Below, in pieces: positions 12,726-25,090 of a DNA stretch of 26,014 bases. This DNA comes from a virus. Below the pieces are notes generated by a model. The model saw nothing but the letters and a program-made list of their open reading frames with translations. It did no database searches and was not told the origin of the DNA. Numbering within the stretch: the first letter of the stretch is position 1; each line of letters starts with the position of its first letter. The stretch covers positions 1-26,014 of the IMG/VR virus record IMGVR_UViG_3300003886_000046. One strand, written 5' to 3'. The position numbers and the translations under genes were made by a program.

Positions 12726-13193
12726 TTAACGCGCCATTGCTTTTACGTAGTTAGGATCGGCTGGTAGCTGCAATCCTTTAGACTGGCAGAACTTTTCGAT
12801 GTCACCCAGGTACTTCGCAAATTGTGAAACGGTGGCCCAGGTTGTCGAGATTGTATCCAGCGCCCTGTCGATCATCAGTTTAGTCCCGTCCTCTTTGATT
12901 AGATCGTAAAGCCTTACCCATTCCATCTGCCGTGCATTTTCCTGTGATGCAAGATAGATTCTCAGCATATAGGTTTTTTTAAACCTTTCGTGGAGCTCAG
13001 TTTCTGTGTACCCGGTCTGCCGTGATAGTTCAGGTAGCCACCCGGCCCACATTAATGCGTTTTGAGCCTGTTTGCGTACGTCTGTGGCATTGTGGAAAGT
13101 TACTTGTACGCTACCATCCTGTCTCATGTGTGACAGTGCGGTGAGAGCCAGCGGATAGGTTTTCTCGGTGATTATGAAAGTTTGTGCCCTCAT
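12726..13193 (-). CDS. ninB: NinB recombination protein
   Basis: Lambda NinB (Orf) is a recombination mediator that binds single-stranded DNA and SSB. Seen: the N-terminal strand MRAQTFIITEKTYP, the signature RKQAQNALMWAGWLPELSRQ, then HERFKKTYMLRIYL, and the C-terminal IEKFCQSKGLQLP. 155 residues, normal length. The ATG overlaps the HNH stop by 4 nt. Confidence 0.92.
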   Translation of the reverse strand: MRAQTFIITEKTYPLALTALSHMRQDGSVQVTFHNATDVRKQAQNALMWAGWLPELSRQTGYTETELHERFKKTYMLRIYLASQENARQMEWVRLYDLIKEDGTKLMIDRALDTISTTWATVSQFAKYLGDIEKFCQSKGLQLPADPNYVKAMAR

Positions 13194-13531
13194 CTCCGCA
13201 GCCTAAAATATGTCGACGAATCAAATAAATTTCCTTGACCACTTGTAGCGTCTTTATTGCGCTGTCTGTTTGTTTGATGAATTACTCGATCATGGTTTAG
13301 ATGACATCGCTGACAAAGAGCGGCAAGGTTTAACAAACTGGCGTTTTCTGGATTGTGGTCATACACATGAGCGGTTGTTAAAACCACCCTGCTCCCTGTT
13401 ATTGGGTGGGGCTGATAGTTCTCTGCCCCACACCATTCACATTTGTTTTTAGCGCGGTAGAACCTCACGAACCGACTCCTTAGTTTCCAGTCTGCCGGGT
13501 ATCTGTTCTTGTTTTCTGGTCTTATTGGCAT
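13190..13531 (-). CDS. HNH endonuclease
   Basis: 113 residues. CEWCG (32-36), then TTAHVYDHNPENASLLNLAA and LCQRCHLNHD: the HNH beta-beta-alpha-metal core with structural zinc cysteines. Such small HNH proteins act near packaging or in nin regions; specificity cannot be read. The gene starts 50 nt from the left boundary of the cassette array, so it may originally have followed the gene now interrupted at 16416. Confidence 0.9.
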   Translation of the reverse strand: MPIRPENKNRYPADWKLRSRFVRFYRAKNKCEWCGAENYQPHPITGSRVVLTTAHVYDHNPENASLLNLAALCQRCHLNHDRVIHQTNRQRNKDATSGQGNLFDSSTYFRLRR

Positions 13532-13588
13532 TTCATTATTGCTGGGTTATCCTGTTCTGGAATTTCTTGCCATGTTTGGCGTTAGCTG

Positions 13589-13849
13589 TCAGTTGCCAAC
13601 ATCGTATTCAGTGTCTGCAAATTCAGCAGATTGCTTGTCAGTCATAAACGCTTGTCCAAACTCGCGTAATCTTTCTGCTGCCTGCGACAAAACTAAATCA
13701 GCATCATGATCTAATTCTGCTGGTACACGCATTGTAAATTCACGATTTATAGCGCCTTTCCCTTTTGTAACCGCATCTGAAAGTGCATCAAGCCTGCTTG
13801 CCAATATGCTATCTGGCACTCTATCGCCATGTTTATATTTATTGCTCAC
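13589..13849 (-). CDS. Cassette 1 gene, hypothetical
   Basis: 86 residues from GTG 13849, chosen because AGGAG lies 8 nt upstream; the frame is open further but without a ribosome site. Sequence MSNKYKHGDRVPDSILASRL, then TMRVPAELDHDADLVLSQAA and ERLREFGQ: soluble, mostly helical, of a type common in phages. The stop lies 1 nt from the TTAGCTG cassette start. Function unknown. Confidence 0.75.
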   Translation of the reverse strand: MSNKYKHGDRVPDSILASRLDALSDAVTKGKGAINREFTMRVPAELDHDADLVLSQAAERLREFGQAFMTDKQSAEFADTEYDVGN

Positions 13850-13873
13850 GTTAAAATCTCCTATATTAAATTC

Positions 13874-13930
13874 AGCTAACAAGTGCATAAAGCGGATGCA
13901 AAACCCGCACCGATTATGCTGGCGTTATAT
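13874..13930 (+). repeat. attC site 1
   Basis: R'' AGCTAAC (13874-13880) followed by AAG; L'' GCATAAAGCGG pairs imperfectly with L' CCGATTATGC; R' GTTATAT (13924-13930), whose last six bases belong to cassette 2. 57 bp. Confidence 0.85.
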
Positions 13931-14185
13931 TCCTTTCTTGATATGTCTAATAAGGTTTTTCACTCCGAATCCACGCTTTCCATTTCTGCTTATCCACCTT
14001 CCCGTTCCTGGCCAAAAATCAATGTAACACTCAAATCCTTCAACGATTAAGTGCGCTCCCATATTTTTAGATTTAAATGGTATTTCTTCATTCACTAACC
14101 AATCTGAACTTTTTTCACGGTTATTGGCTCTGCGCTTTTGACCTTCTTTTTTCATTTCATTATATAAATCACCCATGTCGCCCAT
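13925..14185 (-). CDS. Cassette 2 gene, basic hypothetical
   Basis: 86 residues: a basic helical N-terminus (YNEMKKEGQKRRANNREKSS), then a compact domain with FECYIDFWPGTGRWISRNGK, resembling small phage proteins that read GxGKW-like patterns. GGAGGATAGT precedes the ATG. The TAA stop is formed by the cassette core itself (ATATAAC). Function unknown. Confidence 0.75.
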   Translation of the reverse strand: MGDMGDLYNEMKKEGQKRRANNREKSSDWLVNEEIPFKSKNMGAHLIVEGFECYIDFWPGTGRWISRNGKRGFGVKNLIRHIKKGI

Positions 14186-14207
14186 ACTATCCTCCTAAAT
14201 TAACGTA

Positions 14208-14279
14208 ATATAACAAGTCATTTAACATTGACCGCCAATACGCTGCGCTCGTTCCTACCGCTTACTTTTATCGTTATAT
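14208..14279 (+). repeat. attC site 2
   Basis: R'' ATATAAC (14208-14214) followed by AAG; R' GTTATAT (14273-14279). The inner part has the motif ACGCTGCGCTCGTTC, frequent in environmental attC loops. L-box pairing is weak. 72 bp. Confidence 0.7.
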
Positions 14280-14280
14280 T

Positions 14281-14455
14281 TCAAAGGAAATCTTCAACGA
14301 TTTGCGCATTTTCAAATAACCTATAATACCTAGCTTCTGCCAATGCCTGTTTTGCCTGCGTCATATTGTCAAACTCATAAGCATCAAATACAAGTATATT
14401 TGTAAAAAATAAAAGATAACAATGCCACAACCAGTACTATACTACATTTGTTCAT
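14281..14455 (-). pseudogene. Cassette 3 gene: secreted small protein with a frameshift
   Basis: ATG 14455 with GAGGTGAT upstream starts a signal peptide (MNKCSIVLVVALLSFIF), which stops after 23 codons. A +1 shift in the run of six T joins it to an open frame TNILVFDAYEFDNMTQAKQA then LAEARYYRLFENAQIVEDFL, ending at 14281 beside the cassette core. With one T fewer the product is a 57-residue exported protein. Real mutation, sequencing error or programmed shift cannot be separated here. Confidence 0.6.
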
Positions 14456-14483
14456 TCTATCACCTCAATTATTCTGCACTTAT

Positions 14484-14519
14484 ATTAAACTGTAGATTCT
14501 GTCTATATGGCTGTTATGT
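14484..14519 (+). repeat. Degenerate attC site 3
   Basis: Core GTTATGT (14513-14519) is clear and is matched by the R'' of cassette 4, but the R'' of cassette 3 is not: the best candidate is ATTAAAC (14484-14490), enclosing a small TAGA/TCTA stem. Only 36 bp, so cassette 3 has probably lost most of its attC and may be immobile. Confidence 0.4.
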
Positions 14520-14777
14520 GTTTAATGTTCTCGTCTTGTCGTTGCTTGTAAAAAACATCCTGTCCTTAAAAGCGCCTAAAGATTCAGAGCCGTTAAAAAA
14601 ATCATTCATCATCAGGTTAATATCGTCAGCATAAGATGGTGGCAATGTGTCATGCAATAAAGTACTCAGCGCAGCAAGTGCAACCTCCAAGTTATGTATG
14701 CGTTGCTCACACATAACAAGCGCATCCACCGGACTTGCTGATTCAGCACTTGATTCTATTTCTGTGGTTCCGCTCAT
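14514..14777 (-). CDS. Cassette 4 gene, overlapping its attC
   Basis: 87 residues from ATG 14777, with GGAG 11 nt upstream. Acidic N-terminus (MSGTTEIESSAESASPVDAL) then a helical core (CEQRIHNLEVALAALSTLL) and NDFFNGSESLGAFKDR. The TAA stop is the cassette core (ACATAAC). The first ~22 codons lie inside the 129-bp attC, so part of the protein is encoded by the recombination site; ATG at MCEQRI would avoid this. Function unknown. Confidence 0.7.
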   Translation of the reverse strand: MSGTTEIESSAESASPVDALVMCEQRIHNLEVALAALSTLLHDTLPPSYADDINLMMNDFFNGSESLGAFKDRMFFTSNDKTRTLNT

Positions 14778-14839
14778 GTTAATTATTTCTCCAAGTTTTG
14801 TGGTATAAATCCGTAAGCCCGTGATGCTGGTCGTTAGGC
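14711..14839 (+). repeat. attC site 4 (long)
   Basis: R'' ACATAAC (14711-14717) followed by AAG; L'' GCATCCAC pairs with L' GTGATGC leaving one extra C in L'', the canonical extrahelical base; R' GTTAGGC (14833-14839). 129 bp, VCR-like in length. Confidence 0.8.
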
Positions 14840-14977
14840 GGCAGTACCAAGCCACACAAAAGACCGGCCAAAAATAGTAATGCTGGCAACCATCAGCCCG
14901 CCAATCTGGTCTTCTTCCACTTCTAATGCAAATAGCTTAGTTGTTCTGTTTCTCTGTATTTTAAACCGTTTCATCAT
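14834..14977 (-). CDS. Cassette 5, second gene
   Basis: 47 residues (MMKRFKIQRNRTTKLFALEV, then GLMVASITIFGRSFVWLGTA). AGGGG lies 5 nt before the ATG at 14977; overlaps the other cassette-5 gene by 17 nt. The TAA stop is the cassette core (GCCTAAC). The mid-section is hydrophobic but short for a membrane helix. Not recognised. Confidence 0.65.
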   Translation of the reverse strand: MMKRFKIQRNRTTKLFALEVEEDQIGGLMVASITIFGRSFVWLGTAA

Positions 14978-15152
14978 CTAACCCCTGGTCTTGTATCATT
15001 TGGTCTTTCCAGTCTCTTGTCTGGTATCTCTTGTAAAATGCGACATCTTTCTCTAGCTCCTTTATAACCGCATCCTTTCCAGCCAGTTCAATTTTGAGCG
15101 CCTTATTTTCTTCCTTTAATTGCATTATCCTTAAATCATGGTCTGTAAACAT
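14961..15152 (-). CDS. Cassette 5, first gene: coiled-coil protein
   Basis: 63 residues, one long charged helix (RIMQLKEENKALKIELAGKD then AVIKELEKDVAFYKRYQTRD) typical of a coiled coil, as in many small phage proteins. GGGAG from the end of attC 5 serves as its ribosome site, 9 nt before the ATG. Cassette 5 is thus a two-gene cassette. Confidence 0.7.
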   Translation of the reverse strand: MFTDHDLRIMQLKEENKALKIELAGKDAVIKELEKDVAFYKRYQTRDWKDQMIQDQGLDDETV

Positions 15153-15165
15153 CTCATAATCTCCC

Positions 15166-15232
15166 GCCTAACAAGGCAATTTAACGCGGACGGCGCAAAA
15201 GACGCTCCTTCCGGTTAATTGCGACGTTAGGC
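15166..15232 (+). repeat. attC site 5
   Basis: R'' GCCTAAC (15166-15172), AAGG; L'' CAATTTAAC pairs with L' GTTAATTG with one extra T in L''; R' GTTAGGC (15226-15232). 67 bp, textbook form. Confidence 0.92.
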
Positions 15233-15517
15233 GCTTAACCTCAGAGCATCTATTGCGTTAATCGCCGCAATCTTGTCAGACTCAGGGGAAGGCGTACTTC
15301 GCAATACGGCCTCCATTGCATCAAGTTCTTCTGTCGATTCAGCACCAATCAAACCGACTAGTGCTGAGCGCAATTTAGCTATTTTTTGCTCGGCTGCCCG
15401 CATAGGGTGCTTTTCGCAAATCTTTATGTGCTCCGTTAAAAGCTCATGTTTTGCTGTTGGTGTACCATCTGGATATTCATGGCCACAATAAACACAAGTC
15501 ACTACATTATCTGTCAT
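15227..15517 (-). CDS. Cassette 6 gene, C2H2-like zinc-finger phage protein
   Basis: 96 residues. CVYCGHEYPDG...KHELLTEHIKICEKHP gives C-x2-C and two H/C ligands, a C2H2-type zinc finger of a kind I know from many phage small proteins; the C-terminal half is helical (EQKIAKLRSALVGLIGAEST). AGGAG lies 8 nt before the ATG. The TAA stop is the cassette core. Function unknown, possibly nucleic-acid or protein binding. Confidence 0.8.
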   Translation of the reverse strand: MTDNVVTCVYCGHEYPDGTPTAKHELLTEHIKICEKHPMRAAEQKIAKLRSALVGLIGAESTEELDAMEAVLRSTPSPESDKIAAINAIDALRLSA

Positions 15518-15531
15518 CGGTAATCTCCTGC

Positions 15532-15603
15532 GCCTAACAAGGCGCTCCAGTTGACGCTCAATACGCTGCGCTTCTTTCGCGCAACTGAGCTAAGTCGTTA
15601 GGC
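15532..15603 (+). repeat. attC site 6
   Basis: R'' GCCTAAC (15532-15538), AAGGCGC; L'' CTCCAGTTG pairs with L' CAACTGAG with one extra C in L''; loop contains ACGCTGCGCTTC; R' GTTAGGC (15597-15603). 72 bp. Confidence 0.93.
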
Positions 15604-15957
15604 ATCATGCTCACTAGCATATTCTTTTGCCAGCTCCCGCATATCCTCTCTGGGTGCAACGCAGTATCCTAATTCTTCTAATGAGAAAAAAATATCACCG
15701 CACGATTCGCACATCCAATCTGATGAGATAGGCATTTCTCCATCCTCGCCGTAAATATTAACTTCTATATCATTTTCAGGAACTTTAATCCTGTTATGTT
15801 CAACTGCCAACGAACCAACATCCATCAGCTTTTTACAAGAGCAGCATCTTTTACGGCGTTTAAATGGTAGTGGTTTATAATCATCAACTTTACCATTCCA
15901 GTACCAGTCACCCGGATCTGGATACCAGTCTGAATCACATCCGCATGTCAACCCCAT
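15598..15957 (-). CDS. Cassette 7 gene, zinc-ribbon phage protein
   Basis: 119 residues. N-terminus MGLTCGCDSDWYPDPGDWYW is a well-known start of phage proteins of unknown role; RRKRCCSCKKLMDVG and later DWMCESCGDIFF supply two C-x2-C pairs for a zinc ribbon. The C-terminus is acidic/helical. GGAGG lies 9 nt upstream of the ATG. The TAA stop is the cassette core. Confidence 0.82.
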   Translation of the reverse strand: MGLTCGCDSDWYPDPGDWYWNGKVDDYKPLPFKRRKRCCSCKKLMDVGSLAVEHNRIKVPENDIEVNIYGEDGEMPISSDWMCESCGDIFFSLEELGYCVAPREDMRELAKEYASEHDA

Positions 15958-15984
15958 CTCAAGCCTCCTAGTTTTGTATTGGCT

Positions 15985-16040
15985 GCCTAACCAGTAAATC
16001 CATCGGACGTAAAACCGCGCCGCTGATTATGGCGTTAGCT
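15985..16040 (+). repeat. attC site 7
   Basis: R'' GCCTAAC (15985-15991) followed by CAG instead of AAG; L'' TAAATC pairs with L' GATTA with one extra A; R' GTTAGCT (16034-16040). 56 bp. Confidence 0.82.
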
Positions 16041-16337
16041 ATCAATGCTCAGCTTCTTAAATGCAATTTTTCGCATATCACTTAAATGATTTTCTGTAGC
16101 GCGTAATGAACCAGCACTGCCAGCGCCCTCGGTCGGTCGCAACCCTGCGTTCCACAGATCATCCATTAAAGATTGCGCTGCATCCATATCAATTCGCATT
16201 GTTGGCTCAGCTACAGCCCCTTTCTTAATAGGGTCTAATATAATATTTGTGCCATAGCTATTGCCCTGACGAACAAGTAACTCAACACCATGATGCCAAG
16301 GCGCAGAAACAGCTCTTAATTCAATTTTTTCTTTCAT
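16035..16337 (-). CDS. Cassette 8 gene, conserved phage protein
   Basis: 100 residues. MKEKIELRAVSAPWHHGVEL, then MDDLWNAGLRPTEGAGSAGS and RATENHLSDMRKI, a conserved small phage protein found in many siphovirus and podovirus early regions; role unknown. AGGATAACG precedes the ATG. The stop TAG touches the core AGCTAAC. Its phage-type sequence shows that the cassettes carry phage genes, not typical integron resistance or toxin genes. Confidence 0.82.
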   Translation of the reverse strand: MKEKIELRAVSAPWHHGVELLVRQGNSYGTNIILDPIKKGAVAEPTMRIDMDAAQSLMDDLWNAGLRPTEGAGSAGSLRATENHLSDMRKIAFKKLSIDS

Positions 16338-16355
16338 ATCGTTATCCTATAAAAT

Positions 16356-16421
16356 AGCTAACAAATGCACAAAGCGGATACTACCGAAAATCGCATCCCT
16401 CAAAACTGCATGTCGTTATCG
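16356..16421 (+). repeat. attC site 8, right end of the array
   Basis: R'' AGCTAAC (16356-16362), AAATGCA; L'' ATGCA pairs with L' TGCAT; R' GTTATCG (16415-16421). The TTATCG bases do not match any other R'' in the array, so they belong to the phage flank. 66 bp, overlapping the 3' end of the next gene. Confidence 0.8.
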
Positions 16422-16638
16422 GCCAGTCGGCATTTATCATGCTTCTGAAAAGCTGGCTATTTTTCCTCGGCTTTGCCTGCGGCTGGCGTTTATCTTGAGC
16501 GTCATACTCAAGCCTCAATCGCTCTGCCTCTTTCTGATCACTGCCTCGATATATAACTTTTTTGCCCGGCGTTTTAGCGAACCAGGCGTTGTGCGACACA
16601 GAAAAATGGACGCCGTCTATGTTTGATGTGAGTTTCAT
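16381..16638 (-). CDS. Phage gene whose 3' end was replaced by attC sequence
   Basis: 85 residues from ATG 16638, with ACAGG upstream. Sequence MKLTSNIDGVHFSVSHNAWF, KVIYRGSDQKEAERLRLEYD: a small DNA-binding-like protein with a WF/AW pattern; a basic tail follows. Codons up to ...ADWPI lie outside the array; the last residues TTCSFEGCDFR are encoded by attC 8. Joining across the array (16416 to 13581) gives WPIT then PNMARNSRTG and a stop, a plausible ancestral end just before the HNH gene. Function unknown. Confidence 0.7.
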   Translation of the reverse strand: MKLTSNIDGVHFSVSHNAWFAKTPGKKVIYRGSDQKEAERLRLEYDAQDKRQPQAKPRKNSQLFRSMINADWPITTCSFEGCDFR

Positions 16639-16660: not shown

Positions 16661-16924
16661 TTATAAACTCTCAAACACATGAAATATCAGTGTGGCATTA
16701 GCCATTTGATAAGTGCCAATATATTTTCTTGTCGTGTCCGGCAGTACGTGACCAGTGCCATGTATCGCTATTTGTCTGGCCTCAGTAAGCTGCTCTGTGT
16801 CAATTCTCGCCCATAAACAAGGCTCACCATTTTGTATCTGCACAGTAAGTATCTCAGCACCAACTGGCATTTGCACTTCCTGCTTGTCAATTGTTTGTAA
16901 ATTAAATTTCCAGATACTAATCAT
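16661..16924 (-). CDS. Conserved phage protein (DUF7352-like)
   Basis: 87 residues: MISIWKFNLQTIDKQEVQMP, VGAEILTVQIQNGEPCLWAR, then IHGTGHVLP and YIGTYQ...LIFHVFE. This strand-rich pattern recurs in small phage and bacterial proteins (DUF7352, from memory). Role unknown. Confidence 0.75.
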   Translation of the reverse strand: MISIWKFNLQTIDKQEVQMPVGAEILTVQIQNGEPCLWARIDTEQLTEARQIAIHGTGHVLPDTTRKYIGTYQMANATLIFHVFESL

Positions 16925-23207: not shown

Positions 23208-23396
23208 TCAATCTCCTTTGCTTGCAATAAACAAAATAAGCTCAGCGTCTTTATCCTGCCCAGCACCAAGTAATTTCCCGCTGGCCCAGCTTATCAATCC
23301 GCGCAGTCTTTTTATCTCAGCATCTACCTCATATTTTGGGTAAAATAATCCGCTCTCTTCTGTTAATCCAGCACCACCGAAATATCTTGATTTCAT
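23208..23396 (-). CDS. Duplicated module, gene B copy 1
   Basis: 62 residues. MKSRYFGGAGLTEESGLFYP, then VDAEIKRLRGLISWASGKLL; about 80 percent identical to 24600-24797 over the first 50 residues, with divergent ends. Amphipathic helix content suggests protein binding. 4-nt overlap with the previous gene; the stop is part of the next gene's ribosome-site cassette. Function unknown. Confidence 0.75.
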   Translation of the reverse strand: MKSRYFGGAGLTEESGLFYPKYEVDAEIKRLRGLISWASGKLLGAGQDKDAELILFIASKGD

Positions 23397-23647
23397 TTCA
23401 CCAGCTCCCTTGCATGTTTGACTAATGCTGTTAAATGCTTTTGTGCGCCATTATGCTGCTCGAAAATAGATAAGCCCTTAATTATGTCAACAATGTCAGC
23501 AAAATCACCTATCAGCTTGTCTCTGGCGGCCAGGGTTTCCTTGTGATCTTTGTATAAAACGTAATTTCCAGCAGTTTTATGCTCCTGCATTGAGCCACAG
23601 CACGATACGCCATACTTAATGCACGATAAATTATAGCGTTTAATCAT
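23393..23647 (-). CDS. Duplicated module, gene A copy 1
   Basis: 84 residues. MIKRYNLSCIKYGVSCCGSM followed by QEH... is identical at its start to 24794-25090; the middle diverges and the end KHARELVK matches a motif shared by three proteins here. Cysteine-rich N-terminus (C9, C16, C17) may bind metal. Function unknown. Confidence 0.75.
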   Translation of the reverse strand: MIKRYNLSCIKYGVSCCGSMQEHKTAGNYVLYKDHKETLAARDKLIGDFADIVDIIKGLSIFEQHNGAQKHLTALVKHARELVK

Positions 23648-24113: not shown

Positions 24114-24326
24114 ATTACATTTACAGAAGCACCCCGCGGCCTTAATTCAACGGCTATTAGTGTTTTACTTTCATGGGGGGCTACCCCATTTATACTTAGC
24201 ACTATGTTACCGCTTCATTGCACCACGGGACGGGCCGGAGGCGGGAGTCGAACCCGCGCATTCCAAAACCAGCCCACTCTCGTCAGAGCTGCGTCTATCT
24301 TCCGCCAGTGCTTCTGTAAATATAAT
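24114..24326. repeat. Inverted repeat around tRNA-like element 2
   Basis: Arms of 19 bp with one mismatch: 24114-24132 (ATTACATTTACAGAAGCAC) and the reverse complement at 24308-24326. They enclose a 175-bp stretch with no long reading frame, holding the tRNA-like element 2. A 33-bp imperfect direct repeat (24088-24120 and 24337-24369) flanks the same segment. Could be a small transposed element or a duplication scar. Confidence 0.7.
24234..24305 (-). tRNA. tRNA-like element 2 (probably decayed)
   Basis: 72 nt. Textbook T-arm GCGGG-TTCGACT-CCCGC; acceptor GCGGAAG/CTCCGGC pairs at 5 of 7; no acceptable 5-bp anticodon stem with 7-nt loop (CTCT/AGAG and CAGC/GCTG are the only nearby pairings). 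Likely a tRNA pseudogene or tRNA mimic. A 14-residue frame with a good ribosome site runs into its 5' end, exactly as at element 1. Confidence 0.35.
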
Positions 24327-24360: not shown

Positions 24361-24603
24361 TCATTGCATGCCCTCAACAAAGTCTTTTGCATCCCTTAAA
24401 GACTTTCCAGTTTCACTCCTACAAAGCCGTATAGCATCAAGCTTTCTCCCCTCCTTAACCAAGCACCACGCCTGATATTCCCAGTTATCAACGCTTGCAG
24501 CATCAAAAACAGCCTTTGGGTGCTTTTTTGCGATCTCAATTACAATACTTTTCCAGTCCTGTTCTTTGCTACATATCTCTAACGCTTTCGCATAATAATT
24601 CAT
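24361..24603 (-). CDS. Protein with bL12-like C-terminal motif
   Basis: 80 residues. The end KLDAIRLCRSETGKSLRDAK then DFVEGM resembles the ribosomal bL12 C-terminal motif (KxxIKxVRxxTGLGLKEAKDLVE), which in bL12 recruits translation factors. The N-terminal half (KALEICSKEQDWKSIVIEIA) is helical. Possibly interacts with translation factors; alternatively a generic helical phage protein. Confidence 0.6.
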   Translation of the reverse strand: MNYYAKALEICSKEQDWKSIVIEIAKKHPKAVFDAASVDNWEYQAWCLVKEGRKLDAIRLCRSETGKSLRDAKDFVEGMQ

Positions 24604-24797
24604 TTTCTTGCATCCCCTAAAGTAAGTTTATCAAGCAGTGTCTCAGCGTCTCTATCCTGCCCAGCATCAAGTAATTTACCGCTGGCCCAGCTTATCAATC
24701 CGCGCAGTCTTTTTATCTCAGCATCTACCTCAGATTTCGGGTAAAATAATCTGCTCTCTTCTGTTAATCCAGCGCCACCGAAATATCTTGCTTTCAT
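24600..24797 (-). CDS. Duplicated module, gene B copy 2
   Basis: 65 residues, MKARYFGGAGLTEESRLFYP..., paralogue of 23208-23396; most differences are at the C-terminus. Overlaps both neighbours by 4 nt. Confidence 0.75.
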   Translation of the reverse strand: MKARYFGGAGLTEESRLFYPKSEVDAEIKRLRGLISWASGKLLDAGQDRDAETLLDKLTLGDARK

Positions 24798-25090
24798 TTC
24801 TCCATCTCTCTGGCTTGTTTGATTATCCTTTCATACGAAAGTGGAAAAGATAATGCGTTGTAGGCTTCAAGTAATGTAGCCATCTCACCTATCAGCTTGT
24901 CTCTGGTTGCTAAATCCTTTGCTTGACTGTTTACTGTTTTAGAAAGTTTAAGCTGATATTTTAATGAACCGTCCAAGGCTTTCAGGTGGTCTTCATATAG
25001 AACATAGCGTCCACCAGTCGCGTGTTCCTGCATTGAGCCGCAACACGATACGCCATACTTAATGCACGATAAATTATAGCGTTTAATCAT
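24794..25090 (-). CDS. Duplicated module, gene A copy 2
   Basis: 98 residues, the longer paralogue of 23393-23647: same cysteine-rich start (MIKRYNLSCIKYGVSCCGSM), an additional helical insertion (KYQLKLSKTVNSQAKDLATR), then RDKLIGEMATLLE and the shared end KQAREMEK. Confidence 0.75.
   Translation of the reverse strand: MIKRYNLSCIKYGVSCCGSMQEHATGGRYVLYEDHLKALDGSLKYQLKLSKTVNSQAKDLATRDKLIGEMATLLEAYNALSFPLSYERIIKQAREMEK

Follow-up and report, generated by a model that had tools for sequence, protein, structure and literature searches.

Integron gene cassettes in a tailed-phage early operon that run antiparallel to their attC sites

An ordinary integron cassette consists of a gene followed at its 3' end by an attC site that reads in the same direction. 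Integron theory assumes this order of gene and attC, by which recombination of the bottom strand at attI aligns the cassette genes with the promoter Pc. The two arms of an attC site are unequal, with extrahelical bases on the R''-side arm, and the bases that open a cassette after the G^TT cut (TTRRRY) form the complement of the R'' of the same cassette. Reversed toxin-antitoxin cassettes are a familiar exception in bacterial arrays. Cassette arrays in phages are already known: CALINs, in which at least two attC sites lie close together without a nearby integron integrase, have been described in the virulent phages TJE1, P12002L and PH101 (Qi 2023, PMC9892861). The same paper reports that five of six phage attC sites tested recombine with IntI1, and it calls the PH101 cassettes typical, with no remark on their polarity in the parts consulted. 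IntI1 can also use secondary targets of which only a GTT or GNT triplet is left (PMC10127599), and cassette insertion into genomes at attG sites has been described (Loot et al. 2024, as cited in PMC12901181). Leading- or lagging-strand position affects attC folding, and location on the lagging-strand template raises cassette recombination (PMC11023631, PMC8946536).

The window, by which we mean the whole stretch of 26,014 nt that was analysed, is one contig (C5) of a 60%-complete bacterial bin, and its gene content is that of a tailed phage. Its genes include terminase, portal, O-like and P-like replication genes, NinB, NinG, a DNA methyltransferase and an HNH endonuclease. An array without integrase fills positions 13582-16415, and phage-gene profile matches identify its surroundings as a nin-like early operon. 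As in a CALIN, five attC matches lie within 2.2 kb (E 3e-16 to 0.002) and profile searches of C5 found no integron integrase nearby. No tyrosine recombinase was found on C5, the PF00589 and TIGR02249 matches all being on other contigs of the bin. With no intI found on the contig, the array is not a complete integron with intI, attI and Pc; neither attI nor Pc, which had no reliable model in this analysis, was recognised in the window. Another contig of the bin (C85) carries, in tandem, two genes for IntI-like recombinases that score above the TIGR02249 cut-off (L067 1170-2126 and 2744-3757, plus strand). By eye, TTLRNS stands in place of their HxxR box and a catalytic tyrosine seems to be missing, so these recombinases may be inactive or repurposed. 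Elsewhere in the window a two-gene block is duplicated on the minus strand (23208-23647 and 24600-25090), with MKSRYFGGAGLTEES.../MKARYFGGAGLTEES... and MIKRYNLSCIKYGVSCCGSMQEH... each occurring twice. There is also a very short, sub-threshold tmRNA match at 24240-24273 on the minus strand (18.5 bits, where the gathering score is 47), which could be chance or possibly a 3' end fragment marking an attachment site.

The array holds seven or eight integron gene cassettes. Their attC sites were scored with a covariance model built from 30 bacterial attC sites; this larger bacterial set was used because RNAalifold on nine attC sites, eight of them from plasmids, gave the outer stem only. The cassettes and sites are as follows.

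13582-13924: cassette 1, gene 13589-13849 on the minus strand with a GTG start and AGGAG, antiparallel to attC1
13874-13930, plus strand: attC1, 20.5 bits with covariance model R1, E 0.002; two extrahelical bases on the R'' side
13925-14273: cassette 2, gene 13925-14185 on the minus strand, a phage early gene of the phrog_27571 type whose stop TAA opens the cassette
14208-14279, plus strand: attC2, 22.7 bits with covariance model R1, E 7e-4
14274-14833: cassette 3, gene 14514-14777 on the minus strand, ending 240 nt from the cassette edge
14795-14839, plus strand: decayed attC, R'' without AAC, recognised by eye and missed by the covariance model
14834-15226: cassette 5, gene 14961-15152 on the minus strand; complementarity to R'' 9 nt
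15166-15232, plus strand: attC5, 42.0 bits on plus and 14.2 on minus; extrahelical bases 2 against 0
15227-15597: cassette 6, gene 15227-15517 on the minus strand, whose end coincides with the first cassette base
15532-15603, plus strand: attC6, 75.3 bits and E 3e-16 on plus, 17.2 bits on minus
15598-16034: cassette 7, gene 15598-15957 on the minus strand, whose end coincides with the first cassette base
15985-16040, plus strand: attC7, 28.5 bits, E 3e-5; orientation from the covariance model alone
16035-16415: cassette 8, gene 16035-16337 on the minus strand, whose end coincides with the first cassette base
16356-16421, plus strand: attC8, weak, below covariance-model detection; its R' core GTTATCG is that of the interrupted gene

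RYYYAAC...GTTRRRY cores, paired inner arms and extrahelical bases on the R'' side are found in attC1, attC2, attC5 and attC6, and partly in attC7 and attC8. A search of Rfam gave no usable attC match. Cassette 3 is possibly two fused cassettes. The relatives of the cassette 2 gene are ordinary early-region genes in the phages Pm86, PS-1 and D478, where they sit near Bet/exonuclease, NinB/NinG or methyltransferase genes (in Pasteurella, Pseudomonas and Vibrio phages), and thus at least some of the cassettes carry phage-type genes. The cassette 8 gene has a relative in Burkholderia phage CSP3. As for a defence function of the cassette genes, the single weak PADLOC match (E 0.006) was given no credit.

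The most striking property of the array is that its genes run antiparallel to their attC sites, which the first-pass annotation had missed. All cassette genes are minus-strand genes, co-directional with the surrounding phage genes. The covariance model detects five attC sites, all of them on the plus strand (75.3, 42.0, 28.5, 22.7 and 20.5 bits), whereas the reverse reading reaches 17 bits at best, and attC1, attC2, attC5 and attC6 show extrahelical bases in the proportion 2 to 0 when read on plus. For attC8 the arm bulges leave the orientation ambiguous. Each of the five detected sites has minus-strand genes on both sides, most of them with strong Shine-Dalgarno sites, so that at none of the five are gene and attC co-directional as in a canonical cassette. 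Furthermore, in four of the seven cassette genes the stop is a TAA that the core supplies within the first three bases of the cassette, and these genes finish exactly on its first base.

The inverted arrangement is also found in other viral contigs, among them L004, L073, L079, L082 and L101. In the published virulent phage PH101 four attC sites lie on plus and the genes are annotated on minus in the deposited gene calls. Parallel phage arrays do exist, as in TJE1, L282 and L253. We compared viral and bacterial contigs in two surveys. The first assigned the attC strand by the extrahelical-base method and applied an identical attC pattern (P1) to both sets, giving 5:1 antiparallel to parallel for viral against 3:56 for bacterial contigs (p = 4e-5); with two further viral patterns the viral count became 11:3 against the same 3:56 (p = 3e-8). 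In the second survey viral attC sites were found by the covariance model together with a fourth viral pattern and the sites on bacterial genome contigs by pattern only, and one ORF rule served both sets. The viral loci were 21 antiparallel, 13 parallel and 10 ambiguous in orientation, and the bacterial loci 7, 87 and 22, respectively; with kinship among loci ignored, 21:13 against 7:87 gives a Fisher p of 7e-10. Viral loci with at least two sites were antiparallel in 12 cases and parallel in 5. Elsewhere in the host bin most attC sites are parallel to their genes (C181, C39 and C63:5999), and one site beside a likely toxin-antitoxin pair is mixed. On C63 (L427 302-646) a gene that resembles a member of a toxin-antitoxin pair lies antiparallel to an adjoining attC.

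Several antiparallel loci carry phage-type genes, namely RtcB ligases, DNA methyltransferases and a portal protein gene (L080). RtcB RNA ligase genes adjoin inverted attC sites in two phage contigs (L145 10820-12131 and L232 4071-5272), and DNA methyltransferase genes are found in inverted cassettes at L149 1094-1757 and, by sequence resemblance only, at L182 702-1488. In L004 the neighbour of a cassette with an HNH gene is a second inverted cassette. Searches with single attC sites against isolated phages by blastn gave no usable match. Three phage contigs, which probably have Bacteroidetes hosts, show long-armed TAAC...GTTA hairpins between co-directional small genes (L018 4793-5981, L020 4973-5105 and L036 4741-8585). 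These hairpins look like cassette sites but lack extrahelical bases, and some of the small genes (MNDNLTTNAS...) recur.

The second result concerns the place of insertion, for which the following features of the flanks are needed.

12726-13193, minus strand: NinB/Orf-like recombination mediator of the left-flank phage operon (phrog_72, E 1e-15)
13190-13531, minus strand: HNH endonuclease gene on the left array flank (phrog_1571, E 1e-23; 42 relatives in IMG/VR)
13546-13581, minus strand: sequence for the predicted lost tail PNMARNSRTG if 13581 is joined to 16416; codon signal uninformative
13581-13582, plus strand: left insertion junction G^TT, with GTTAGCTG at 13581, 8 nt complementary to the R'' of attC1
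16381-16638, minus strand: interrupted phage gene, 16416-16638 original and 16381-16415 read out of attC8
16661-16924, minus strand: DUF7352 gene, the next phage gene on the right flank (PF24043, E 3e-24; phrog_3848)

The cassettes that start at 13581, 14833, 15226, 15597 and 16034 are complementary to their own R'' over 8, 9, 9, 8 and 9 nt, and each of these five starts pairs best with its own R''. By eye, the start of cassette 2 at 13924, GTTATATT, is likewise complementary to AATATAAC of attC2. Because cassette starts are complementary to their own R'', the left edge 13581^13582 is intact and cassette 1 begins at 13582. On the right, GTTATCG at 16415, which serves as R' of the last attC, matches the R'' of that attC and the other cores only as far as GTTA, which means that GTTATCG belongs to the flanking target DNA. 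This end of the array falls within a phage gene, at a GTT short of a full GTTRRRY core, and at both 13581^13582 and 16415^16416 the G^TT lies outside attI and attC, as expected of a secondary site. The flanks join exactly at G^TT, the cut that integrase chemistry predicts, and the joined site reads TTTGGCG^TTATCGG. The first-pass annotation had proposed that cassettes entered at a secondary GTT site near the 3' end of this gene, which agrees with the G^TT edges and the flank-supplied core. From sequence, the target before insertion is predicted to read ...TTTGGCG^TTATCGGCC... on plus, and the empty-site junction would read CATGTTTGGCG joined to TTATCGGCCAG.

The open reading frame at 16381-16638 encodes 85 aa, of which the last residues, TCSFEGCDFR, are encoded within attC8 (16356-16421). 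The phage-derived part stops at 16416, which bears out the earlier proposal that the codons after ...ADWPI come from attC8. Joining 16416 to 13581 gives a reading frame that ends ...ADWPITPNMARNSRTG* and is also 85 aa long. It had been claimed that deleting the array restores the frame with a stop 14 nt before the HNH start codon; the join is indeed open, with the distance corrected to 15 nt. From the junction, however, a stop codon is reached in all three frames within -15 to +10 nt of the HNH ATG (13531), and since every frame stops there the restored frame carries no weight and was rejected as evidence for the join. The gene body (16418-16638, 73 codons) has an in-frame coding signal of 0.213 bits per codon, and the 10-codon tail has 0.108, no better than the other frames. 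The reconstructed end ...PNMARNSRTG therefore stays a prediction. Homologues of the interrupted gene were found neither in INPHARED, nor in 299 genomes of the host's order, nor in GTDB genome contigs. Its sole IMG/VR match (L002) was rejected as a chance match inside a terminase. An empty-site search through the NinB-like and PAPS-reductase flanks in IMG/VR returned nothing, and none of the 42 loci with HNH relatives there shares the flanks of the array.

We consider it likely that integron cassettes were inserted at an attG-like GTT site in the 3' part of this small gene of the nin-like early operon. The principal objection to the left boundary is that the left flank might not be the other half of the gene: the HNH gene would be what is left of a further cassette whose attC was lost, or else a deletion of phage DNA would have followed the insertion, and the in-frame join would be a coincidence. 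On the unrelated phage contig L004 (5161-6370) the HNH homologue is itself a cassette gene in the inverted arrangement, adjoining its own attC on the opposite strand. This makes the HNH flank less secure, and a history of the left flank more complex than a simple gene half is possible. The 50 nt before 13581 also end in TTTGGCG, which resembles the last bases of several attC sites, and a stop near HNH occurs in all frames. Against this, the HNH stop overlaps the start of the NinB-like gene by 4 bp (ATGA, 13190-13193), with no cassette edge after it, and no attC was found between 13532 and 13581, where there is no AAC core and no covariance-model match at E up to 10. The overlap and this lack of an attC place the HNH gene in the phage operon here, and the start of cassette 1 is complete. 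On balance we regard this alternative as unlikely, while giving it some weight. Less probable still is that the array was acquired as a whole through homologous or illegitimate recombination with a different phage or a chromosome, as in ordinary phage mosaicism, rather than by integrase insertion. Such an origin was proposed for phage CALIN boundaries by Qi et al. 2023 (PMC9892861), and it suits a contig on which no integrase was detected, but illegitimate exchange would rarely leave both edges exactly at G^TT, the first cassette intact and the last attC completed by the flank.

Other objections concern the sites and their polarity. That the orientation bias is an artefact of calling attC sites and ORFs, or of bacterial contigs among the viral ones, seems to us quite improbable. 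It is true that the ORF calls were made within this analysis, that some site orientations are ambiguous, that partly different patterns defined viral and bacterial sites and that IMG/VR holds some cellular contigs. Yet the P1 pattern alone separates the two sets, the survey based on the covariance model agrees with it, the polarity in PH101 comes from deposited gene calls, and contamination with bacterial arrays would shift the viral set towards parallel. It is very improbable that the hairpins are an attC-like phage element, such as terminators or HNH homing targets, instead of integron sites. They do occur between phage genes and beside HNH genes in several phages, but attC6 reaches 75 bits under a model of bacterial attC sites, the cores, extrahelical bases and complementarity at the cassette edges are conserved, and the IntI1 assay of others cited above recombined most of the phage sites it included.

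The inverted polarity of phage cassettes is a stronger result than the insertion boundary. Its recurrence in viruses and its rarity in bacteria suggest that inverted cassettes form a pool which phages maintain for themselves. For the array in the window, the integrase would have been supplied in trans by the host, and the array may have been built by recombination of an attC with the secondary site and then of attC with attC. Read-through of the phage operon, and not an integron promoter, would account for expression of the cassettes. In this position inverted cassettes could be expressed within the phage operon and would be antisense behind a bacterial Pc. If the genes are co-directional with replication, inversion may also place the recombinogenic attC bottom strand on the lagging-strand template and allow more exchange. 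These two effects may be why the inverted arrangement is retained, and they might keep the phage and bacterial cassette pools partly apart. The full proposal, in which phages maintain a systematically inverted pool that is expressible in phage operons, silent behind Pc, placed on the lagging-strand template and exchanged rapidly with the help of host integrase, is tentative and in our judgement falls somewhat short of an even chance. The opposite polarity implies that many phage arrays were not simply captured from bacterial integrons and expressed unchanged. Such a polarity argues for cassettes being formed or selected within phages, and for a barrier between two gene pools that is set by orientation. 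The locus is also a case in which the insertion edges of a cassette array can be read in a phage gene.

A prior report of inverted polarity in phage cassettes was not found in the open literature, most subscription journals being outside this coverage, and a systematic inversion of genes against attC sites in phage cassettes appears undescribed so far. Compared with known systems, the array shares with the phage CALINs of Qi 2023 the lack of an integrase, the same structural kind of attC and a content of mostly small genes of unknown function, sometimes with DNA methyltransferases. It differs from what is described there in that both insertion edges can be read. TJE1 is parallel, whereas PH101 is antiparallel like the window. 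With known insertions at secondary or attG sites, as described in PMC10127599 and, for attG, as cited in PMC12901181, the array has in common a GTT-triplet target that is neither attI nor attC. Unlike those insertions, the present one affects a phage gene and comprises a multi-cassette array. Integrons of the sedentary chromosomal and the mobile class 1 kinds show the same attC structure, one gene per cassette and a stop codon that often lies in the core site. In contrast to these integrons, the window has no IntI found and no attI or Pc recognised, and its genes run against attC.
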